Of a stretch of DNA of 53,987 nt, positions 23,006 through 38,852 are shown one piece after another; within the stretch, counting starts at the first letter, position 1, and the number at the start of each line of letters is the position of its first letter. The stretch spans positions 1 through 53,987 of the IMG/VR virus record IMGVR_UViG_3300046009_004608. One strand, 5' to 3'. Both the position numbers and the translations under genes were made by a program. This DNA is from a virus. The notes under the pieces were generated by a model that did no database searches, had not been told where the DNA came from, and saw nothing but the letters and a program-made list of their open reading frames with translations.

Positions 23006-24915
23006 TGCCTTCAGCACAAGTCACTATTACCCAATTACCGGCTGCGGGCCCAATTACGGGCACCGAGTCAGTTCCTATCGTCCAAAACGGTCAGACAGTA
23101 CAAACAACAACGGGGGCGATTGCCGCCTCCCCAAGTCAGACTCAGACCTTTATTACAGTTAACCAAGAGCCGAGCCTAATCAATAGCCGGTCATTGTCTG
23201 TCGGGTCAGGTCTTACTCTTACCGATGGTGGCGCCCAGTCCACCATGCAGGTCAACCTATCGGGTGCGGTTGCTAGCCTAGATTCTTCAACCGTAGGGAT
23301 GCAGGCTAAGACTAACGCTTCAACCATGGTTGGCCGCACAATTACGGGGTCAACTGGAGTTTCAGTCACAAACGGTAACGGCGTAGCGGGAAACCCCACA
23401 ATCAGCCTTACAGGGACCGTAGGGGCTTTGGCTGGGCTTGCCGGAACCGGAATTCTAGGCATCGTTGGCGGCTCTACCGTCACCGCGGTCGATATCACTG
23501 GGACGACCAATGAGATCGATGTAGCTAACGGAACCGGCCCCGGAAACCCAACTATTGGGATTTCTGACAACCCTCGGATGCCCGGCACCGGAGGGATGCA
23601 GGTTCCGACCGGAACTACAGCTCAAAGGATCGGAAGCCCAGACGGGTCTATCCGATATAACACCGACACCGATCAATTTGAGGGATTAGTTAACGGCACT
23701 TGGCTTAACGCCTTAGGTGCGTCTGGCTTTTCCGGAATCAGTGGATTTTCAGGTTTTAGCGGTATATCGGGTTTTTCGGGATTTAGCGGATTTTCAGGAT
23801 TTTCTGGCTTTTCTGGACTTAGCGGTATATCAAGCACCTTTTATCCATACCGCACTAATACGGGAAGTACCTCTGGAGACCCCGGATCAGGCAAGCTGTT
23901 ATGGAATAACGGAACTCAGACAAGCGCAACACAAATCAATGTCAATCACATAACGGACGATGGCGTTGATATTGATGTCTTTTTGGCCCTGCTTGCCCAA
24001 ACAGAAAACTTCATCATTCAGGATCAAGCTAATAGCGCAAACTTTCAGAAGTGGTTGATTAGCGGGGCACCATCAAACGCAGGCACTTACTGGACTATTC
24101 CTTGTACGCTAGTTAATTCTGGAGGTACAGGTACAACTGGATTTGCAGACAACCTCGAAGTCATCCTTGCAGTCGTAAACGGTATCAGTGGTTTTTCCGG
24201 AACGAGCGGGTTTTCGGGATTCTCAGGAATTTCCGGCTTTAGCGGATTTTCAGGAACGAGCGGATTCAGCGGTTTTAGCGGATTTAGCGGCGAGTCTGGA
24301 TTTTCAGGTTTCAGCGGAATTTCAGGATTTTCGGGCAATAGCGGCACGTCTGGCTTTTCGGGCTTTAGCGGTTATTCCGGATTAGACGGAGTCGCTCAAA
24401 GCGGTGTTTCTGGATTTAGCGGATTTTCGGGAGAAAGCGGATTTTCTGGCTTTAGCGGAATCTCCGGCTTTTCAGGAACCTCTGGATTTTCCGGCGGTGA
24501 TGGCGCGTCCGGATTTAGCGGATTTAGTGGCACATCGGGTTTTAGTGGCGAGTCAGGATTTTCAGGGACGTCCGGCTTTAGTGGCGAATCGGGATTTAGC
24601 GGATTTTCCGGAATAAGTGGATTTTCTGGAATTTCGGGATTTTCAGGAGAATCTGGAACCTCAGGATTTAGCGGAACGTCCGGATTCAGCGGGGCCTCAG
24701 GAATTAGTGGTTTTTCGGGCTTCAGCGGCACATCGGGATTTTCGGGTGCGCCGCCAACCACAATTGATGTCGCTACGACTTCTACGACGCCGGTTTACCC
24801 TGTTTTAGTAGCTGGAACTACGGGAAGTCAGAGCGCGTTGACGGATTCGGATTTGAGCTACAACGCAACAACTAATGCGTTTTTGTCTGGGGTTCAGGGC
24901 GGAACATTCTCATGA
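23005..24915 (+). CDS. Tail fibre with Gly-Phe-Ser collagen-like repeats
   Basis: This 636-residue fibre begins with an attachment motif (ITQLPAAGPITGTESVPIVQNG) shared with the protein at 20451. A Gly/Thr/Val-rich shaft follows (to about residue 235), then a first run of Gly-X-Ser triplets (about 240-276), a folded insert (about 277-392, with FLALLAQTENFIIQDQAN), and a second long run (about 395-583). X is mostly Phe, with Ile, Thr, Glu or Ala, and the third position is almost always Ser. The end is short, with GGTFS. Probably a trimeric host-binding fibre. Confidence 0.85.
   Translation: MPSAQVTITQLPAAGPITGTESVPIVQNGQTVQTTTGAIAASPSQTQTFITVNQEPSLINSRSLSVGSGLTLTDGGAQSTMQVNLSGAVASLDSSTVGMQAKTNASTMVGRTITGSTGVSVTNGNGVAGNPTISLTGTVGALAGLAGTGILGIVGGSTVTAVDITGTTNEIDVANGTGPGNPTIGISDNPRMPGTGGMQVPTGTTAQRIGSPDGSIRYNTDTDQFEGLVNGTWLNALGASGFSGISGFSGFSGISGFSGFSGFSGFSGFSGLSGISSTFYPYRTNTGSTSGDPGSGKLLWNNGTQTSATQINVNHITDDGVDIDVFLALLAQTENFIIQDQANSANFQKWLISGAPSNAGTYWTIPCTLVNSGGTGTTGFADNLEVILAVVNGISGFSGTSGFSGFSGISGFSGFSGTSGFSGFSGFSGESGFSGFSGISGFSGNSGTSGFSGFSGYSGLDGVAQSGVSGFSGFSGESGFSGFSGISGFSGTSGFSGGDGASGFSGFSGTSGFSGESGFSGTSGFSGESGFSGFSGISGFSGISGFSGESGTSGFSGTSGFSGASGISGFSGFSGTSGFSGAPPTTIDVATTSTTPVYPVLVAGTTGSQSALTDSDLSYNATTNAFLSGVQGGTFS
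23722..24756 (+). repeat. DNA encoding Gly-Phe-Ser triplet repeats (two blocks)
   Basis: Two blocks (23722-23832 and about 24187-24756) repeat nine-base codons for Gly-X-Ser, such as ggatttagc, ggattttcg and ggcttttct. The codons are varied at third positions, so the amino-acid pattern rather than the DNA is conserved, which argues for selection on the protein. Such repeats are prone to length change by slippage or recombination. Confidence 0.85.
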
Positions 24916-26321
24916 AGTATTCCGTAGTCATCCCAACCTATAACCATTGCGACGACCTGCTGCGGCCGTGTCTTGAATCTATTTTCAAGTACACGGACAT
25001 GAGCGAGGTCGAAGTCTTGGTTTCGGCCAACGGATGTACGGACAATACCCGCTGGTATCTTGAGTCACTAAAAAATCAATTTACCCGAATAGGCTTTGGG
25101 GATCACTTTAAGGTTATTTGGAGTGACACTCCACTTGGATATCCGGTGGCCTGTAATGTGGCCATACGGCATTCGACCGCAGATAAGATTGTTTTGCTCA
25201 ATAACGACTGCGTTTTGATTGAGCAGGACAAAAATACTTGGCTAAACCTTCTTGATGCGCCTTTTGAAAGCCCAAAAACTGGCATTTCCTGCGTAGTTAA
25301 AAACCGTTGTGAGATCACTAACCGTGAATTTGCAATTTTTTTCTGCGTTATGGTGCATCGCAAGGTATTTGAGACCATTGGCCTCTTAAATCCGGAGTAT
25401 GGGGTTGGCGGATGTGAGGACATCGACTTCTGTATTGAGGCCGAAGAGGCTGGTTTTGAGGTCACCCAGTGCGGAAGCAAGTTTTGGGACGGAAAAACTT
25501 TCGTTGGCGAGATGCCGGTCTATCACAAGGGCGAGGGAACCGTTTACGACACGGCTCTAGTTCAGGACTGGGACAATAAATTCAGGCAAAACCAGCTCAA
25601 ACTGGCTCAAAAGTACAGCCCAGCCAAGGCCGCCCAGCTTTCTTTAGCTTGGATGGCAGAAAACGGGCCGGAGGCGGCAGAGCTTTACAAGGAGGTTGTC
25701 GTTGAGAACGTTTATCAAGTCTCGGAGGACCTTATTAAAGGCCGTCCGGTCATCGATATCGGTGCCAATGTGGGTACTTTTGCTATTTTGGCTGCTAGCC
25801 TTGGGGCCTCAAAGATCGTGGCTGCCGAGCCGGTTTCTGAGACCTATGATCGCTTGGTTCAAAACCTACAAAGGGCGAGTGCCAACGCCGTAGCGATGAA
25901 GGCAGCAGTCATGGATAAGGTTGGAACCGTAGAGATTGGGGTAAACCCGAAGAGTGGGCATAACAGTCTTTACAAGTCTGAGAGCGGATCTGAGTCCGTC
26001 CCCTCGGTTACCTTGGCTGATCTGCTTGAGCACGTTGAGGGCAATGACATATTCCTCAAAATGGACTGCGAGGGGGCTGAGTACGATATTTTGATGGCCG
26101 CCACCCAAGAGGAAATGGACCGTATTGGCCGGCTGGCTATTGAGATTCATGGTGATATGCACCCCAAATACAAGGGTTTGGAGACCCTTTGGAGCCGTTT
26201 AGAGGCCCTTGGCATGAAACTTGTAGACCGCAAGCAGATCGGGGCTTGGGATGTCGATTCTGAGGGCAGAATGGTCAATTACCGTGACCTTCCCCGGACT
26301 AATGAGATTTGGAGCCGGTGA
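24912..26321 (+). CDS. Fused glycosyltransferase (GT2) and FkbM methyltransferase
   Basis: Residues 1-265 are a GT-A family 2 glycosyltransferase: YSVVIPTYNHCDDLLRPCL, EVLVSANGCTDNT, KIVLLNNDC and the acceptor part VGGCEDIDFCIEAEEAGF with ED. Residues about 275-450 are an FkbM-type SAM methyltransferase: PVIDIGANVGTFAILAAS, KIVAAEPVSETYDRL, IFLKMDCEGAEYDIL. The pair could add and methylate a sugar on phage tail proteins or on host surface glycans. It starts by ATGA overlap with the fibre gene, so it is probably made with it. Fusion within one chain is notable. Confidence 0.9.
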   Translation: MKYSVVIPTYNHCDDLLRPCLESIFKYTDMSEVEVLVSANGCTDNTRWYLESLKNQFTRIGFGDHFKVIWSDTPLGYPVACNVAIRHSTADKIVLLNNDCVLIEQDKNTWLNLLDAPFESPKTGISCVVKNRCEITNREFAIFFCVMVHRKVFETIGLLNPEYGVGGCEDIDFCIEAEEAGFEVTQCGSKFWDGKTFVGEMPVYHKGEGTVYDTALVQDWDNKFRQNQLKLAQKYSPAKAAQLSLAWMAENGPEAAELYKEVVVENVYQVSEDLIKGRPVIDIGANVGTFAILAASLGASKIVAAEPVSETYDRLVQNLQRASANAVAMKAAVMDKVGTVEIGVNPKSGHNSLYKSESGSESVPSVTLADLLEHVEGNDIFLKMDCEGAEYDILMAATQEEMDRIGRLAIEIHGDMHPKYKGLETLWSRLEALGMKLVDRKQIGAWDVDSEGRMVNYRDLPRTNEIWSR

Positions 26322-28466: not shown

Positions 28467-29699
28467 ATGAGTTTCCGTTATCCAAAGGGCGGGTTTATAA
28501 CTGCCTTTTATGATCCGCTACAGGTGCCAAATGCGCCGACCATTGGGACTGCTACTGCCGGAGATACGCAGTTATCGGTGACCTTTACTGCGCCAGCAAA
28601 TGTTGGCGGAAGTGCAATTACAGGTTACGGAGCCGTTGCTGTTGATAGTTCTGGAAATTCAATTAGCGGAACAGGGTCATCATCGCCAATTACAGTTACT
28701 GGACTGAGCAATGGAACGGCATACACCGCCAAGGTGTGGGCAATCAATAGCTACGGCCCAAGTCCTTATAGTGCAGCGAGTGGAAGCGTGACTCCGGCAT
28801 TTCAGCGAGCAGTATTTGGCGGGGGTTATGACACTAATGGAGTAACTAATGTTATTTCCTATATCAACATGGCATCAACCTCTGGAAATTCAATTGATTT
28901 TGGTGATTTAACCGTAGCTAGAAATGGACTTAGCGCAACATCATCGTCAAGCAGGGGAGTGTTTGGTGCCGGATTAAATAGTGGAAATACAAAACAAAAT
29001 GTGTTGGATTACATAACTCTTGCATCGATTGGAAATGCAATTGACTTTGGAGATTTAACTGTCGCTGTTAGCTATAACGCAGGTTGCGGGTCAAGCACAA
29101 GAGGTTTGTACGGAGGCGGTCAAAATACTTCAAATATTCCAGTGACTACTATTGGATACATAACAATAGCAACAACTGGTGATGCAACATCCTTTGGGGC
29201 GTTAACATTAGATCGGTACCAGCTAGGAGCTTGTTCATCAAGCACTAGGGGTGTTTGGGCGGGTGGATATAATAATGATGGCGGTGGTGCAAGACATAAT
29301 GTTATTGATTATGTAACGATTGCCTCCACTGGCAATGCTACTGATTTTGGAGATTTGCCAACGACAACAAATGCTTTGGGTGGGTGTTCATCTGCCACAA
29401 GGGGATTATTTGCCGGTGGGTCTACCGATAGCGGAGACACTAATGTCATCAATTACATTACCATTGCTTCAGCAGGAAATGCTAGTGATTTTGGGGACTT
29501 AATAAATCAACCATACAATTTTGCCGCTACATCATCTTCAACCAAAGGATTTTTTGCTGGCGGTTATTTTGGCGGAGAAACAAACGTAATTCAGTATGTC
29601 ACCATAGCGTCAACTGGAAACGCCATAGACTTTGGTGATCTTACGGCCGCAACAAATGGAATAGCTGGCTGCTCATCTGACCACGGAGGACTTCAATAA
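28467..29699 (+). CDS. Fibronectin III plus six-repeat kelch-like propeller protein
   Basis: Residues about 20-110 form a fibronectin type III domain (PNAPTIGTATAGDTQLSVTFTAP, then GSAITGYGAVAVD, YTAKVWAINSYGPS). The rest has six repeats of about 50 residues with a core like NVIDYVTIASTGNATDFGDL and a following SSTRG-FxGG. GG pairs and the spacing resemble kelch blades, so one six-bladed propeller is likely. It ends CSSDHGGLQ, matching the ends of the two following proteins. Probably a receptor-binding appendage. AT-richer than the flanking structural genes. Confidence 0.82.
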   Translation: MSFRYPKGGFITAFYDPLQVPNAPTIGTATAGDTQLSVTFTAPANVGGSAITGYGAVAVDSSGNSISGTGSSSPITVTGLSNGTAYTAKVWAINSYGPSPYSAASGSVTPAFQRAVFGGGYDTNGVTNVISYINMASTSGNSIDFGDLTVARNGLSATSSSSRGVFGAGLNSGNTKQNVLDYITLASIGNAIDFGDLTVAVSYNAGCGSSTRGLYGGGQNTSNIPVTTIGYITIATTGDATSFGALTLDRYQLGACSSSTRGVWAGGYNNDGGGARHNVIDYVTIASTGNATDFGDLPTTTNALGGCSSATRGLFAGGSTDSGDTNVINYITIASAGNASDFGDLINQPYNFAATSSSTKGFFAGGYFGGETNVIQYVTIASTGNAIDFGDLTAATNGIAGCSSDHGGLQ

Positions 29700-32600
29700 T
29701 GCCATCGTATTCAGGCGTCTGGAACCTCCAGCCGGTCTACCAAGCGGTAGCTCAGGGGCTGTGGCCGTATAGCCCGACTAACGGCCCGATTGGGTTGTTT
29801 GGGGGTGGGTTTACTACTACTGGCACAAATACAATACAACAAATAATTATTGCATCCCTTGGCGACGCTACCGACTTTGGAGATTTAACTCAAGCAAGAT
29901 ATCAAGGTGCATCTTGTGCCAGTTCAACAAGGGGAATTTTTGGCGGTGGTACTGTAGCAGGAAGTTATGTTAATGTAATTGATTATGTCACCATCGCTTC
30001 AGCAGGTAATGCTAGTGATTTTGGAGACTTGGTTGGTGCATACGCATATTTATCAGCAACATCAAATTATGTAAGAGGCATTTTTTTTGCTGGATACGAT
30101 GGATCGCCAATAAATATAATTCAATACATTACCATAGCAAGCACAGGCAACACTTCTGATTTTGGAGATTTATCATTATCTTGTTATACAAATGCGGCTT
30201 GCTCATCAAGCACAAGGGCATTAACTGCGTTAGCTTATACAACAGGAAATGTAAACATAATTGAATATGTAACTATTGCATCATCAGGAAATTCAACTGA
30301 TTTTGGAGATTTAACAGTCTCAAGAAATTCTTTATCAGGATCAGCATCAGACACAAGAGGATTGTTTGCTGGCGGAAACACTGGTTCAGTCTCTAATGTA
30401 ATTGACTATGTGACTATTGCTTCGGTAGGCAACGCTACTGATTTTGGTGATTTAACATTAGCAAGGTATTACATAGGATCTTGTGCATCAGCAACAAGAT
30501 CTGTAATGGGTGGTGGGTATACAGGATCAGCAGGATCAAACGTAATTGATTATGTAACCATTGCATCGACCGGTAATTCAACCGATTTTGGTGATCTTCT
30601 TGCAGCAACAAGTATTTACAATGCCGCCTGCTCCAACGCCGCATCAGCCGTTCAACCCACACCAACCAGCGCAGAAATGGCGTTTATTGGTGGAGGTAGA
30701 TCGGCAAGTGGTACACAAACCGTAATTCAATATGTAAACATTGCTACAACAAGCGACGCTTATATGTTTGGTGATTTAACATCAGACCGTGGATTTACCG
30801 GAGCGTGTTCTAGTTCCACAAGAGGAGTATGGAGCGGTGGTTATACTGAAGGTGCAGCAATAAATTTAAATATTATTGACTACATCACCATGTCAACATT
30901 TGGCAAAGCTACCGATTTTGGTGATTTGTTAAGCGCAACACGATTTGTTGCCTCATGTAGTAGTAGTACGCGCGGATTAATTGGCGGTGGCTTTATTGCT
31001 GCCGCGACAAATGTAATTGCGTACATAACGATTGCATCAGTTGGTGATGCACTAGATTTTGGTGATTTAAGCCAAGCTAGACAAGGACTTGCTTCATGCT
31101 CATCAACTACTAGAGGAATTTTTGCGGGTGGATATTCCGGAGCAACAAACTTTAATATTATTGATTATGTAACTATTGCATCAATTGGTAACGCTACAGA
31201 TTTTGGAGACTTAAATGGAGTTAGACAAACTTGCGCTGGATGCTCATCGGCAACACGCGGTTTGATTGGCGGTGGGTCGGACAATGTTGGAAATATAAAT
31301 GTAATTGATTACATCACAATTGCATCGGCTGGAAATGCAACGGACTTTGGTGATTTAACTGTTGCAAGAACTCAAATTAGTTCTGCATCGTCAACAACAC
31401 GAGGTTTGTTTATGGGTGGAAACCCAAGCGGCAACGTAATTGACTATGTGACCATTGCTTCCGCTGGAAACGCTACTGATTTTGGAGATCTTTTATATAA
31501 CACCAATACGGCGTCTGCTACATCAAACTGCCACGGAGGACTATAAATGAGCAAAAAATGGCCCGGCGGTTTTATTAAGCCGATACCTCCGACACCGACC
31601 GGCCCGTATCAAGACGGGGGTGCAACAGGGGTTTGGACGCTTGATCAGATGTCCTATTGGCTAAAGCAGGGTCTGTGGCCGATTGCTGGAAACGTGGCGC
31701 CAATTGGGTTGTTTGGTGGGGGGTTTGATGTTGGTTCATCAAATGTTATTGATAGCGTTGTGATTGCCACAGCAGGGAATTCAACAGATTTTGGAGACCT
31801 AAGTTTATCTAGATATGGTTTGGCAGGTTGTGCGTCAAATGTTCGTGGAGTATTTGGCGGAGGTACAACTGGAAGTAGTTCGAACGTAATTGACTACGTC
31901 ACAATTGCAAGTGCTGGTAATGCCACAGATTTTGGTGATTTAAGTGTCGCTAGACACTATTTAGCGGGTTGTTCAAATTATGTTAGGGGAACATTTGGTG
32001 GAGGAACAACAAGTAATGCTGCCGCAAGCCTTAATGTAATTGATTATATTACGATTGCTTCTGCCGGTAATGCAACAGACTTTGGTGATTTAACTGCAGC
32101 TTTTCAGTACATTGCAAGTTGTGCTTCGTCTACTCGTGGCATATTTGGAGGCGGAACAAATACAAGTGGTACAGACGTAAATATTATTAATTACGTAACA
32201 ATAGCCTCTACTGGAAATGCAACAGACTTTGGTGATTTGACGTTAGCAAGATACGCACTAACATCATGTTCATCAGAAACTAGGGGGACTTTTGGTGGTG
32301 GTGGAACTGGTCCAAGTAATGTAATTGATTACATCACAATTGCTTCCGTAGGAAATGCTACAGATTTTGGAGATTTGTTGGGCAACAATAGATTTCTAGC
32401 AAGTTGTGCCTCAAATGTTCGCGGTCTGTTTGGGGGAGGCTATGACGGCAGTGTTTATCTTAACGTTATTCAATTTATAACAATTGCAAGCACTGGAAAC
32501 TCTACCGATTTTGGAGATTTAACTGGGGCAAGAGGTTATTTAGCAGCCTGCTCCAACGCCGCATCAGCCGTTCAACCCACGCCGACCAGCGCAGCTATGG

Positions 32601-33480
32601 CGTTTTTTGGTTCCGGTGAAACAAGCGAGGGAAGACAAACTGGAATTCAATATGTAAACATTGCAACTACTGGAAATGCTTATTTATTTGGTGATTTAAC
32701 TTTTGGAGCGGTTACACCTGCCGCCTGTTCGTCGTCAACTAGAGGTCTTTGGGCGGGTGGAGAATTAAGTGATGGAACTACAAATACAAATGCAATTGAG
32801 TTTGTAACATTTTCAACTTTTGGCAAAGCAACTGATTTTGGAGATTTGCTTGGTGGAGCAAGATTACAAGGGGCTTGTTCTAGCGAAACCCGTGGTGTCT
32901 GGGGTGGCGGTCAAAATGCATCAGCAGTTATACAAAATGTTATTGAATATGTAACTATTGCGTCTGCCGGAAATTCAACAGATTTTGGAGATTTAACCGT
33001 AACTAGACAAGGATTGGCTGGATGCGGGTCAACAACAAGAGGTTTATTTGGAGGTGGTGAACCAGCAAGTGGTTTATCTAATGTTGTGGATTACATAACC
33101 ATTGCGTCTGCTGGGAACGCCACGGATTTTGGTGATTTAACTGTTGCAAGACAAAGTTTGTCTTCATGCTCATCATCAACTAGAGGTTTGTGGTTTGGTG
33201 GAGAGTCTGCCGGATCTGTTAAAACAAACATCATTGACTATGTAACTATTGCGTCGGACGGGAATGCTACCGATTTTGGGGATATAACTACTGGAACAAT
33301 AAGATGTTCATCGGCGTCTTCGTCAACAATAGGACTGGTTGGCGGAGGAATTCAAGCATCAAGAACAAATGTTATAGAGTATGTAACTATTGCATCGACA
33401 GGAAATGCTACAGATTTTGGTGATTTGTCTGGGGCAATTTCTAGTGGAGCAGCTTGTTCCAATGCCCACGGTGGACTATA
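28806..33480 (+). repeat. Tandem propeller-repeat array across three genes (30 repeats)
   Basis: I count 6, 12 and 12 copies of the FGDL-type repeat in the three successive proteins, about 50 residues (150 bases) each. A recurrent DNA core resembles gcaacagattttggtgattt with third-base variation. The linker between blocks of six is almost the same in the two larger genes, at about 30628-30690 and 32548-32610. This pattern suggests duplication of whole six-blade units followed by drift, with high potential for recombination. Confidence 0.85.
29699..31546 (+). CDS. Twelve-repeat kelch-like double propeller protein (615 aa)
   Basis: The N-terminus SGVWNLQPVYQAVAQGLWP is a widespread virion-attachment motif in phage appendages. 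Twelve repeats of the FGDL type follow, split six and six by a linker around SNAASAVQPTPTSAEMAF. This implies two six-bladed propellers in tandem. The end is SNCHGGL, close to its neighbours. No enzymatic site is visible. Its start overlaps the previous stop by one base. It is probably a paralog of the next gene, arisen by duplication. Confidence 0.82.
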   Translation: MPSYSGVWNLQPVYQAVAQGLWPYSPTNGPIGLFGGGFTTTGTNTIQQIIIASLGDATDFGDLTQARYQGASCASSTRGIFGGGTVAGSYVNVIDYVTIASAGNASDFGDLVGAYAYLSATSNYVRGIFFAGYDGSPINIIQYITIASTGNTSDFGDLSLSCYTNAACSSSTRALTALAYTTGNVNIIEYVTIASSGNSTDFGDLTVSRNSLSGSASDTRGLFAGGNTGSVSNVIDYVTIASVGNATDFGDLTLARYYIGSCASATRSVMGGGYTGSAGSNVIDYVTIASTGNSTDFGDLLAATSIYNAACSNAASAVQPTPTSAEMAFIGGGRSASGTQTVIQYVNIATTSDAYMFGDLTSDRGFTGACSSSTRGVWSGGYTEGAAINLNIIDYITMSTFGKATDFGDLLSATRFVASCSSSTRGLIGGGFIAAATNVIAYITIASVGDALDFGDLSQARQGLASCSSTTRGIFAGGYSGATNFNIIDYVTIASIGNATDFGDLNGVRQTCAGCSSATRGLIGGGSDNVGNINVIDYITIASAGNATDFGDLTVARTQISSASSTTRGLFMGGNPSGNVIDYVTIASAGNATDFGDLLYNTNTASATSNCHGGL

Positions 33481-35419: not shown

Positions 35420-35683
35420 ATGGCTAAAGACTTTCCTGATCTGACAGGTGATGGCAAGGTAACCCAAGCCGATATTCTTAAAGGCAAGGGAGTCTTTAAA
35501 AAGGGCGGAAGCACTGACAAATGGATTCAAAAGGCAATTTCTAAGCCCGGGGCGCTGAAGAAACAACTAGGCGTTCCTGCCGATAAAAAAATTCCTGCCA
35601 AAACTCTGAATAAAGCCGCCAAGGCTCCGGGGAAGCTAGGTCAGCGGGCGCGATTGGCTAAAACACTACGAGGTTTTGATTGA
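35420..35683 (+). CDS. Small basic protein with EF-hand-like loop and WIQ/KLGxRARLA module
   Basis: The product (87 aa) starts AKDFPDLTGDGKVTQADILKG, where DLTGDGKVTQAD resembles a dockerin or EF-hand calcium loop. A glycine bead (FKKGGST) follows. The rest is the module KWIQKAISKPGALKKQLGV, then APGKLGQRARLAKTLRGF. This last module appears in many aquatic phages and large viruses, with no known role. The high Lys/Arg content suggests nucleic-acid binding or packing in the virion. Confidence 0.75.
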   Translation: MAKDFPDLTGDGKVTQADILKGKGVFKKGGSTDKWIQKAISKPGALKKQLGVPADKKIPAKTLNKAAKAPGKLGQRARLAKTLRGFD

Positions 35684-35880
35684 TGGAGCAGTCTATAGAG
35701 ACCAAGTTGGCCGTCCATGAGGCGGTCTGTGCTACTCGATATGAGCAGATCTCTGCCTCATTAAGAGAGGGTGATCGTCGTATGAGCAAGATCGAATACT
35801 TGCTTTATGCGGTGATTATTGTTGTGCTTTTTGGTCCGGGTGTGGCAGCAGAGTTTTTTAAGAAGTTGATTGGAATGTGA
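35683..35880 (+). CDS. XhlA-like membrane protein, lysis cassette (65 aa)
   Basis: The product has an amphipathic N-terminal helix (METKLAVHEAVC-like: MEQSIETKLAVHEAVCATRYEQ), a charged turn (REGDRRMSKIEYLL) and one membrane span (YAVIIVVLFGPGVAAEFF). This matches haemolysin XhlA-like proteins, which work with holins. The start overlaps the previous stop by one base. It is the first gene of a cluster of membrane proteins before the endolysin, supporting a lysis role. Confidence 0.75.
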   Translation: MEQSIETKLAVHEAVCATRYEQISASLREGDRRMSKIEYLLYAVIIVVLFGPGVAAEFFKKLIGM

Positions 35881-35959: not shown

Positions 35960-36418
35960 GTGTCAAAACTACCCGATCCTACCGACCCACAACAGGTCGT
36001 TCAGGCCGCCTTGGGTGGAATCAAGGAGGCTTTGAAGGCTGGGCGGGATATCAAGGAGACCGCCAAGGAGGTCAATGCCTTTTTGGACGAAGAAGCAAAG
36101 GCTCGGGTCGCATGGAGGAAAAAGCAGCAAGATGTAATGCGTCGAGGGGACATGATGTATATCGATGCAATCAACGAGTACCGAATTATTTACAACATCC
36201 GCCAACAAAAAGAGCGGGCGTTTGAGCAGATTGAAAAAGAGTTTGGGAAAAAGGCAATTCAGGAAGTAAACGCACTAGAAGAAAGACTTAGAAAAGAGAA
36301 AAAAGAGCTTCAAAAAGAATACGACTCTGACCGCAAGGCAACACGAAACGAATGGTTAGTAATTCTGTTACTCGGTGCAGTCATCTACGGAATTCTAAAA
36401 GCAACAAAGGTGTGGTGA
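35960..36418 (+). CDS. Coiled-coil protein with C-terminal membrane span (152 aa)
   Basis: GTG start with GGAG 9 bases upstream. Residues 10-130 are helical and charged (IKEALKAGRDIKETAKEVNAFLDEE, then FEQIEKEFGKKAIQEVNALEERLRKEKKELQKEY), a long coiled coil. The C-terminus is one hydrophobic span (WLVILLLGAVIYGILKA). The form is reversed relative to an i-spanin, which has an N-terminal anchor. It may anchor a cytoplasmic coiled coil, or be inverted in topology. Related genes exist in aquatic phages as hypothetical. Confidence 0.7.
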   Translation: MSKLPDPTDPQQVVQAALGGIKEALKAGRDIKETAKEVNAFLDEEAKARVAWRKKQQDVMRRGDMMYIDAINEYRIIYNIRQQKERAFEQIEKEFGKKAIQEVNALEERLRKEKKELQKEYDSDRKATRNEWLVILLLGAVIYGILKATKVW

Positions 36419-36759
36419 TGGAAAAAAGTGCAAAGGAATTAGCAAGTAAAGTCATCGGGGTAATAGGCATTCCGTCCATTGTACTTATGGTAGGTATGGT
36501 GATTTATTCGGCTATGAGATTAGAAGCCGAGGCACTAACTCCAATTGTGGGTATGGCCTCTGGCGTCATCATGGCCCTGATCTCCATGATCGCCGGAATT
36601 ACCGGAACCAAGGACAAAGAAGAAAAACCGGAATTTAAAGTTATCACCGATCTAATTGCCCGGTTAGACCAAAAAGAAGCTCCGATGCGGGTTGATGTTG
36701 AGGACGGCAAGGTTACAGTTCGTAAGGGTGATGATACGGTGAATATGGAGTCGAAATGA
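36418..36759 (+). CDS. Two-span membrane protein, possible holin (113 aa)
   Basis: The ATG at 36418 overlaps the upstream stop (TGATG). After a short polar start, two hydrophobic segments follow (VIGVIGIPSIVLMVGMVIYSAM and LTPIVGMASGVIMALISMIAGITG). The tail is hydrophilic, rich in Lys, Glu and Asp. Two spans, a small size and a position just before the endolysin are typical of class II holins. The acidic tail is longer than usual. It overlaps the next membrane gene by 4 bases. Confidence 0.7.
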   Translation: MEKSAKELASKVIGVIGIPSIVLMVGMVIYSAMRLEAEALTPIVGMASGVIMALISMIAGITGTKDKEEKPEFKVITDLIARLDQKEAPMRVDVEDGKVTVRKGDDTVNMESK

Positions 36760-37238
36760 TTACTTTACTTTCTACCCTCGTTTCCTTCCTGATGGGCGGT
36801 CTGCCCAAGGTCTTAGATTTCTTCCAAGATCGGTCGGATAAGGCTCATGAACTAGAACTCGCTAGGATGCAAACGGAGCGGGAGCTTCAGATGCTGGAAA
36901 GAGGTTTTGCCGCCCAAGCCCGGGTTGAGGAGATCCGGACTGACCAAGTCGCCATGCAGACTGCCGTTCAGGAGCGTCAAGCCTTGTACGCCCACGACAT
37001 CGAGATCGGCAAGGGAGCCTCTCAGTGGGTGGTCAATATGCGGGCCTCTGTCCGTCCCGTTATTACCTACGGGATGTTTTCCCTTTTGCTTTTTGTAAAC
37101 ATCTTTGGGTTTTTCTACGCTTGGAAGACCGGAGTGCCGTTTGATCAGGCGATGGAGATTTTGTGGGATGAGGACTCGGCCATCATCTTTTCAAGTGTGA
37201 TTGCGTTTTGGTTTGGTAGCCAATCCTTTAAAAAATGA
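36756..37238 (+). CDS. Holin-like 3TM membrane protein (160 aa)
   Basis: The product has an N-terminal hydrophobic segment (ITLLSTLVSFLMGGLPKVLDFF), a long charged helix (DKAHELELARMQTERELQMLERGFAAQ), RVEEIRTDQ, then two hydrophobic segments (RPVITYGMFSLLLFVNIFGFFYAW and AIIFSSVIAFWFGSQSF). This pattern is common in podovirus lysis regions, described as 3TM holin-like. It lies by ATGA overlap just before the lysozyme. Either it or the preceding protein could be the holin. Confidence 0.78.
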   Translation: MITLLSTLVSFLMGGLPKVLDFFQDRSDKAHELELARMQTERELQMLERGFAAQARVEEIRTDQVAMQTAVQERQALYAHDIEIGKGASQWVVNMRASVRPVITYGMFSLLLFVNIFGFFYAWKTGVPFDQAMEILWDEDSAIIFSSVIAFWFGSQSFKK

Positions 37239-37711
37239 GAGTAGAAGAGCGTGTCATTGAAATGGTCAAACATCACGAAGGGGTCAGACTTCGTCCCTAT
37301 CGTTGCCCTGCTCTGCTTTGGACTGTGGGCGTTGGTCATGTCATTGATGCTCGGCACATAGGAGTCAAACTTGAAGAACGCAAAACTCTACCCATCCCGG
37401 ACGGCTGGGACAGAACCCTCAGCATGGATGAAGTCAACAAGATTCTTTCTGAGGATCTGGGCCGGTTTGAGGCAGGGGTATTCCGACTATGTCCTAATGG
37501 GCTTACTCTTGGTCGCTTTGGCGCACTCGTCAGCTTCGCTTTCAACGTTGGTCTGGGCAACCTCCAGCGGTCTTCCATCCGGATGAAACATAACCGGGGA
37601 GAGTATGAAGAAGCGGCAGAGGCTTTTATGATGTGGACTAAGGCAGGGGGGAAAGAATTGCCGGGTTTGGTAAAACGCCGTAGGGATGAAAAATCGTTGT
37701 ACCTCAGTTAA
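37235..37711 (+). CDS. Endolysin, GH24 lysozyme
   Basis: The 158-residue protein has the phage lysozyme active site: HHEGVRLRPYRCPALLWTVGVGH, with E15, C24 and T30 in the usual E-x8-C/D-x5-T spacing. Helices follow (MDEVNKILSEDLGRFEAGVF, GALVSFAFNVGLGNLQRSSI) and a WTKAGGKELPGLVKRRRDE closing segment, typical of GH24. It cuts peptidoglycan glycan strands. No N-terminal signal or SAR anchor is visible, so a true holin is required for release. The gene overlaps the holin-like gene by 4 bases. Confidence 0.93.
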   Translation: MRVEERVIEMVKHHEGVRLRPYRCPALLWTVGVGHVIDARHIGVKLEERKTLPIPDGWDRTLSMDEVNKILSEDLGRFEAGVFRLCPNGLTLGRFGALVSFAFNVGLGNLQRSSIRMKHNRGEYEEAAEAFMMWTKAGGKELPGLVKRRRDEKSLYLS

Positions 37712-37726
37712 ATTGGAGGGGTAAAA

Positions 37727-37813
37727 ATGAAAAAACTTATTGAAAAAATAAAGGCTTTGTTTCAAAAATTAAAGCAAAAAATTAAGTCAATAACCATAAA
37801 AGCCAAAAAATGA
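37727..37813 (+). CDS. 28-residue cationic amphipathic peptide, candidate lysis factor
   Basis: A very good ribosome site (GGAGGGG) lies six bases before ATG 37727. The product has 28 residues: 11 Lys, one Glu and regularly spaced hydrophobics (residues 4, 5, 8, 11, 12, 15, 19, 22 and 24) that line one face of a helix. It starts MKKLIEKIKALF. Net charge is about +10. It is 15 bases after the endolysin stop and overlaps the next gene by ATGA. This is the plan of an antimicrobial-like peptide. A cationic phage peptide that disrupts the outer membrane in place of spanins (disruptin, phiKT) is known. Function here is inferred. Confidence 0.7.
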   Translation: MKKLIEKIKALFQKLKQKIKSITIKAKK

Positions 37814-38217
37814 GCACGGCCGTTAAATCTGACCCATCCAAATGGAAGCGCATCGTTGCCTCGGTGAAAGCCTCGGGCAAGGGTGGCGCTCCGGGTCAGT
37901 GGTCGGCTCGAAAGGCTCAATTGGCCACCCAGAAGTACAAGTCTTCCGGGGGTGGCTATAAAGGCCCAAAAAAGGCCGATAACAGCCTCTCCCAGTGGGG
38001 AAAGCAGGAATGGACTACCAAGTCTGGGAAGCCCTCTACGGTCGGCCCTAAGGCCACTGGGGAGCGATATCTGCCCAAAAAAGCCATCCAAGGGCTTTCC
38101 TCGGCTGAATACGCCGCCACAACCCGTGCCAAGCGGGAGGGGAAGGCTGCCGGTAAACAGTTTGTCTCTCAGCCCAAGGGTATCGCTGAGAAGACTAAGA
38201 AATATAGGAGCTGGTAA
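37810..38217 (+). CDS. DUF5872-like basic protein (135 aa)
   Basis: The protein shows the pattern of the DUF5872 family: KWKRIVASVKASGKGGAPGQWSARKAQLATQKY, then GGGYKGPKKADNSLSQWGKQEW, TKSGKPS, GERYLPKKA, and LSSAEYAATTRAKREGKAAGKQFV. This family is found in aquatic phages and large DNA viruses and has no known function. It is highly basic, so binding of nucleic acid inside the virion is plausible. It is translationally coupled to the cationic peptide gene. Confidence 0.8.
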   Translation: MSTAVKSDPSKWKRIVASVKASGKGGAPGQWSARKAQLATQKYKSSGGGYKGPKKADNSLSQWGKQEWTTKSGKPSTVGPKATGERYLPKKAIQGLSSAEYAATTRAKREGKAAGKQFVSQPKGIAEKTKKYRSW

Positions 38218-38852
38218 TGACGGTTGCGGCAGTTATGACCTATGACAGCTTGGTGGCTGATATTTCGTCCTATTTGGAGCGGACGGACACGGCCACGCTG
38301 GAGAAGATCCCGACGTTCATTATGCTGGCCGAGCAGGTAATTGCTTCCCAAATTAAGTTTTTGGGCAACCTGACGGTAAATACTAGCACCATGACTACTA
38401 GCCAGCCGATCATCGATAAGCCGGCCAGATGGCATAAAACCGTGTCCATGAACGTCACAGTAAACGGGTCGAAAAGCCCGGTTTTGCTCCGCAAGTATGA
38501 GTATTTAAGGGAGTATTGGCCGGACGCTACCGACACTGGGATTCCTAAGTTTTACGCCGATTACGACTATACCCACTGGCTAGTCGCCCCGACCCCGGCC
38601 GATGACTTTGTTTTTGAGGTTCTGTACTACGAGCGGATTCAGCCCCTTGATTCCTCAAATCAGACCAATTGGTTCACGATTTATGCGCCTCAGGCGCTGC
38701 TTTACGGCACCCTTTTGCAGGCCATGCCGTTCCTTAAAAACGATGAGCGCATCCCGATGTGGCAACAGCAGTATGACCTGATCATGCAGACGCTGAAGGC
38801 CGAAGACATCCAGAGGATTGGCGACCGTCAAGCCACCGTATTGGATAGCTAA
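38217..38852 (+). CDS. Tail adaptor-like protein (T7 gp11/P22 gp4 type)
   Basis: This 211-residue protein has helices at both ends and central strands: YDSLVADISSYLERTDTATLEKIPTFIMLAEQ, then PVLLRKYEYLREYWPDATDTGIPKFYADYDYTHWLVAPTPADDFVFEVLYYERI, and YAPQALLYGTLLQAMPFL. This matches tail tubular or adaptor proteins that link portal to tail. It is separate from the other adaptor-like gene at 21591, so two different connector rings are likely. It overlaps the previous stop by one base (TAATG). Confidence 0.8.
   Translation: MTVAAVMTYDSLVADISSYLERTDTATLEKIPTFIMLAEQVIASQIKFLGNLTVNTSTMTTSQPIIDKPARWHKTVSMNVTVNGSKSPVLLRKYEYLREYWPDATDTGIPKFYADYDYTHWLVAPTPADDFVFEVLYYERIQPLDSSNQTNWFTIYAPQALLYGTLLQAMPFLKNDERIPMWQQQYDLIMQTLKAEDIQRIGDRQATVLDS

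Follow-up and report, generated by a model that had tools for sequence, protein, structure and literature searches.

A 28-residue lysine-rich amphipathic peptide gene behind the GH24 endolysin of a phage without recognisable spanins: a candidate disruptin-like lysis gene

Introduction

The Rz/Rz1 spanins consist of an anchored coiled-coil protein and a lipoprotein, which fuse membranes. To our knowledge a single disruptin has been studied experimentally, and Holt et al. (J Bacteriol 2022) are said to have found that this protein, gp28 of Escherichia phage phiKT, complements a spanin defect.

The product of phiKT gene 28 has been described as a disruptin (PMC12819732), and phiKT is listed among the spanin-less phages (PMC6139136). 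The latter are not rare, as 91 of 677 phages of Gram-negative hosts (~13%) have no recognisable spanin (PMC6139136). Whether they use disruptins or other means is a stated open question, because disruptins are too diverse for sequence-based prediction (PMC12819732). Kongari et al. considered that the outer membrane of some hosts possibly needs no dedicated factor (PMC6139136). A cationic amphipathic helix is also present at the C-terminus of the phiKMV-like endolysins (cited in PMC6139136).

Here we analyse a virus sequence of 53,987 nucleotides (IMG/VR record IMGVR_UViG_3300046009_004608), the whole of which we call the window, and in which a 28-residue peptide is encoded directly behind the endolysin gene. 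Like phiKT gp28, this peptide is short and cationic, has its gene immediately after that of the endolysin and occurs in the absence of spanins. The two differ in that gp28 has 56 residues, a net charge of +7 and a hydrophobic central stretch and is followed by a holin gene, whereas the window peptide has half that length and three times the charge density; BLASTP produced no alignment between them at E≤100. They differ as well in that the function of gp28 has been shown experimentally and the role that we propose for the window peptide is a sequence-based candidate. The peptide resembles the phiKMV-like endolysins in its predicted helix, cationic and amphipathic, which might provide another path through the outer membrane. 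Their helix, however, is part of the endolysin, and the peptide is encoded separately, behind a ribosome site of its own.

Results and Discussion

The features of the lysis module and its downstream neighbours, all on the plus strand, are the following.

35680-35880, plus strand: 66-aa lysis-module protein with a C-terminal hydrophobic segment
35960-36418, plus strand: 152-aa charged helical protein with a C-terminal hydrophobic segment, a layout opposite to that of an i-spanin
36421-36759, plus strand: 112-aa lysis-module membrane protein with a hydrophobic N-terminal half and a charged tail
36756-37238, plus strand: 160-aa membrane protein, phrog_6637, putative holin by position and by hydrophobic segments read by eye
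37235-37711, plus strand: GH24 endolysin, 158 aa (PF00959, E=2e-34; endolysin PHROGs; no N-terminal anchor seen by eye)
37715-37721, plus strand: ribosome-binding site GGAGGGG of the peptide gene, 5 bases 5' of the ATG
37727-37813, plus strand: 28-aa Lys-rich amphipathic peptide gene, stop included (ORF reading, simulations, helical wheel, relatives)
37810-38217, plus strand: 135-aa basic protein, its start overlapping the peptide stop (phrog_14910, E=8e-33; phrog_17747)
38217-38852, plus strand: SU10-adaptor-like virion protein (PF24175, E=2e-25)

An earlier sequence-only reading had described the peptide frame as lying behind a GH24 endolysin, with a strong GGAGGGG site and an ATGA overlap with the next gene, and we confirmed each of these points. 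The frame starts with ATG and encodes MKKLIEKIKALFQKLKQKIKSITIKAKK, which has 11 Lys and one Glu, as that reading had counted, and neither Arg nor Asp, giving a net charge of +10 over 28 residues. Its TGA stop shares the ATGA at 37810-37813 with the ATG of the 135-aa gene. The peptide has no transmembrane segment, no anchor and no lipobox. The GC content of the gene is 0.21 compared with ~0.50 for the genome, partly because of its composition. A homologue of the 160-aa putative holin precedes the endolysin in most relatives, and a promoter and terminator scan gave nothing that clearly exceeded shuffles.

An open frame that arises by chance in an AT-rich spacer might show such a low GC content, and two further matches to our Lys-rich patterns (L171 and L172, outside lysis cassettes) proved to be second frames within longer ORFs and were rejected. 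In a six-frame search of the window for ORFs of 20-60 aa with a ribosome-site-like motif, a net charge/length of at least 0.28 and a helical moment of at least 0.45, the peptide frame was the sole ORF to pass, and composition-matched first-order Markov sequences contained a mean of 0.5 such ORFs. Not one such ORF with at least nine Lys arose across 20 Markov simulations. This absence, the codon-substitution bias and the retention of reading frame and ribosome site in three divergent contexts (both described below) make a chance frame scarcely credible. The ORF at 37727-37813 is a genuine conserved coding gene.

On a helical wheel, all seven strong hydrophobics of residues 2-20 (positions 4, 5, 8, 11, 12, 15 and 19) cluster in an arc of 120 degrees (P=0.0012), so that the spacing which had been likened to that of an antimicrobial helix is real. 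The maximal helical moment of the peptide relative to shuffles is a weaker statistic (P about 0.04), and that of the related type B peptide introduced below is unexceptional (P=0.19). Judged by its sequence, the peptide is cationic and amphipathic.

Four queries were run against 2.9 million viral contigs: the downstream gene, the endolysin and two degenerate patterns for the peptide. We turned to degenerate DNA patterns since a peptide this short fails the E-value test of a profile search, which for that reason confirmed identical copies only. The peptide was found on five further contigs and in three sequence types: identical copies in L002 and L003, a 79% identical copy on the 55.8-kb contig L004, and in L092 and L093 a 26-aa type B peptide, MKKIVAKIKEFFASLKAKIQSLFKKK, with 54% identity to the window peptide in alignment. 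Every copy begins at, or at most 15 bases from, the GH24 stop, and each has a ribosome site. The peptide is rare. Direct similarity searching with it gave no matches in 50,697 phage records, a PDB search returned designed helical proteins only, and the one PHROGs match was weak (E=0.03) and to a PHROG of unknown function. Type B has as its best Pfam match CAP18_C, a cathelicidin domain that binds LPS; with E=0.007 the match falls short of the curated cut-off and is a hint only, because Lys-rich helices resemble one another. Cathelicidins (CAP18/LL-37) and the window peptide have the Lys-rich amphipathic helix in common as a resemblance of properties, with no significant homology.

Between the window and L004, five of the seven substitutions in codons 2-20 are synonymous where 21% would be expected (P=0.006), and all four changes in codons 21-24 alter the amino acid. 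This pattern points to purifying selection on the helix codons 2-20 and to a free tail. Type B is hydrophobic at all seven face positions and its changes are mostly on the polar side. Lack of conservation of the frame or its ribosome site in related phages had been named as grounds for refutation; both are conserved, and most of the drift spares the hydrophobic face. These comparisons also bear on whether the gene acts only as a translational coupling or leader cistron with an irrelevant product, for which its shortness, its strong ribosome site and its overlap with the next start codon would be suited. We regard this as improbable, since the selection on codons 2-20 and the conserved amphipathic pattern argue that the product matters, and since relatives without the peptide need no such cistron, their endolysin stop directly abutting or overlapping the same downstream start.

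The genome of L004 (G001) aligns with the window at 88% over 38 kb. Nucleotide homology is missing from the greater part of the lysis module upstream and comes back at 37717, which is inside the ribosome site of the peptide, and the L004 endolysin is 30% identical to that of the window. With DNA homology absent from the upstream module and restored at 37717, the lysis module was replaced and the peptide kept. In the genome of L093 the lysis module is homologous to window positions 36409-37689 and the gene after the peptide is different. From these two comparisons it follows that the peptide stays beside an endolysin whichever neighbour changes.

Peptides of this kind are also found elsewhere in phage genomes. 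L175, L189 and L381 (1209-1292), from AT-rich phages, encode Lys-rich amphipathic peptides of 28-33 aa (e.g. MKILLKRIKNFFKKIKTKISKWKKKKKK) in a cluster of head-tail connector genes; where upstream sequence is present, an HK97-gp10-like gene immediately precedes them. Their sequences are divergent and their place is the same, and they look like real genes. Such peptides are therefore not unique to lysis, which leaves room for the window gene to encode a small basic virion or nucleic-acid-binding peptide that belongs with the virion genes next to it. The Lys/Arg-rich gene whose start overlaps its stop is followed by the adaptor gene, and two of the peptides have phiKZ internal head proteins as their best, sub-threshold, Pfam match (E=0.016-0.12). 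However, such matches are of the kind that Lys-rich composition yields, the hydrophobic face is sharply segregated, and in L092 and L093 the peptide stays with the endolysin in front of a different gene. We consider a virion or nucleic-acid-binding role rather unlikely.

Window and L004 genome are circularly permuted relative to each other, and only ~125 bases at the ends of the window find no match, which suggests that the window is near complete; the absence of spanins from it would therefore be meaningful. PHROGs recognised the terminase and portal of the window. Among isolates with a named host, Caulobacter phages are the closest by these two proteins (44% and 51.5% identity), and the relatives of the downstream protein include HMO-2011-type phages of SAR116, Roseobacter and SAR11 as well as Methylophilales phages. 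Because of these two lines of relationship the host is probably Gram-negative. Neither a prophage nor a host turned up when bacterial genomes were scanned for the endolysin.

An all-frame scan for lipoboxes and N-terminal anchors detected no spanin in the window, so that the earlier statement that it has no i-spanin/o-spanin pair holds. The scan is heuristic and recovered the o-spanins in three of three spanin-bearing control loci scanned; neither the window nor G001 and G013, two other near-complete peptide carriers, yielded a plausible o-spanin lipobox. The single lipobox hit in the window, a frame of 44 aa, runs antisense to a large gene, which leaves the window with no plausible lipobox ORF for a unimolecular spanin (lipobox plus C-terminal transmembrane segment). 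The 152-aa protein at 35960-36418 was rejected as an i-spanin, its hydrophobic anchor being C-terminal.

With the 135-aa gene as an anchor, we compared the slot between it and the endolysin in 80 relatives that have the same downstream gene (77-100% identity). The slot holds a spanin pair in six of them, the peptide in three (the window being extra) and nothing in 70, with one unclassified. In the six (L017, L018, L020, L021, L025 and L026) the pair is an embedded Rz/Rz1 arrangement, the o-spanin lying inside the i-spanin, and is Rz-like by PHROGs (i-spanin E=9e-9; two o-spanins 2e-4 and 3e-5). Rz/Rz1, which have an anchor and a lipobox, and the window peptide, which has neither, thus occupy one and the same slot between the GH24 gene and the 135-aa gene. 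The GH24 endolysins of the spanin-bearing loci are SAR-type, to judge by a hydrophobic anchor read by eye at the N-terminus, whereas the endolysin seems to be without such an anchor where the slot holds the peptide or is empty. It seems that a change of endolysin type goes with a change of outer-membrane device. In 19 relatives (L005-L016, L023, L024, L027-L030 and L061) a peptidase-like endolysin replaces GH24 and the slot is without a spanin; by sequence likeness only, these enzymes resemble M15 D,D-peptidases.

Five near-complete spanin-less relatives (G006, G008, G009, G010 and G011) are also without the peptide. Because of these and of the 70 empty slots, a separate outer-membrane factor may be needless in this phage group. 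In the cassettes of HMO-2011 and the Roseobacter phage CRP-13, read by eye, we recognised no peptide or spanin.

A helix that is amphipathic and cationic will bind to any anionic membrane, and the inner membrane is no exception. The peptide could accordingly be a lysis accessory that acts there, aiding or timing the holin or improving endolysin release and leaving the outer membrane alone, and its gene does lie in the lysis module among other small membrane proteins. We hold this to be unlikely: the slot alternates with Rz/Rz1, an outer-membrane device, the same holin-endolysin layout is kept in relatives without the peptide, and the peptide has no transmembrane segment.

The reading that we prefer, and to which we give about even credence, is that the peptide carries out the outer-membrane step of lysis in the manner of a disruptin in a spanin-less phage. 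Residues 2-20 would fold on membranes as an amphipathic helix followed by a flexible basic tail. The holin would open the inner membrane, and the soluble GH24 endolysin and the peptide would escape through this lesion to the periplasm, where the endolysin would cut the wall and the peptide would bind LPS and phospholipid and break the outer membrane.

The sequence-only reading had likewise proposed that the peptide, if confirmed, would be a much smaller member of the disruptin functional class. This is favoured by the conservation of the peptide, by the lack of a spanin and by Rz/Rz1 in the same slot of relatives; its rarity, the mostly empty slot of relatives and the lack of any sequence relation to gp28 speak against it. 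As would suit a disruptin, the peptide is encoded in the lysis cassette, directly behind GH24 in the window and in all carriers, it is small, cationic and amphipathic with no lipobox (the helix itself being predicted), and the window and the two carriers scanned are spanin-less. The peptide is a candidate for this functional class and not a member by homology: it belongs to no known sequence family, and the most apt description of it is disruptin-like in its presumed mode of action.

What is new here is the size (26-28 aa) and the alternation with Rz/Rz1 in the same slot. The fuller claim, that in spanin-less aquatic tailed phages a peptide of 26-28 residues, half as long as gp28 and unrelated to it in sequence, does the outer-membrane step and is swapped with Rz/Rz1 in one slot, is one that we advance tentatively, as somewhat less than an even prospect. 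If it is true, outer-membrane disruption is a swappable module that can be filled by a 28-codon gene. If it is confirmed, 28 codons suffice for the last step of lysis and gene callers probably overlook such genes. The exchange of Rz/Rz1 and a small peptide in one slot offers a route to disruptin prediction that is independent of sequence.

Further observations concern the neighbouring regions. The 135-aa protein matches two PHROGs, phrog_17747 in its N-terminal and phrog_14910 in its C-terminal part, and their counterparts in CRP-13 are two overlapping genes (gp66 and gp65); the gene has therefore been fused or split in evolution. Within the structural region, window positions 24912-26321 encode a 469-aa protein with methyltransferase and glycosyltransferase PHROG matches. 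Window positions 29150-33150 contain many stretches that are mutually similar in comparison with one region of G013 (L193, 1899-4596), which indicates an internally repeated, tail-type gene region.
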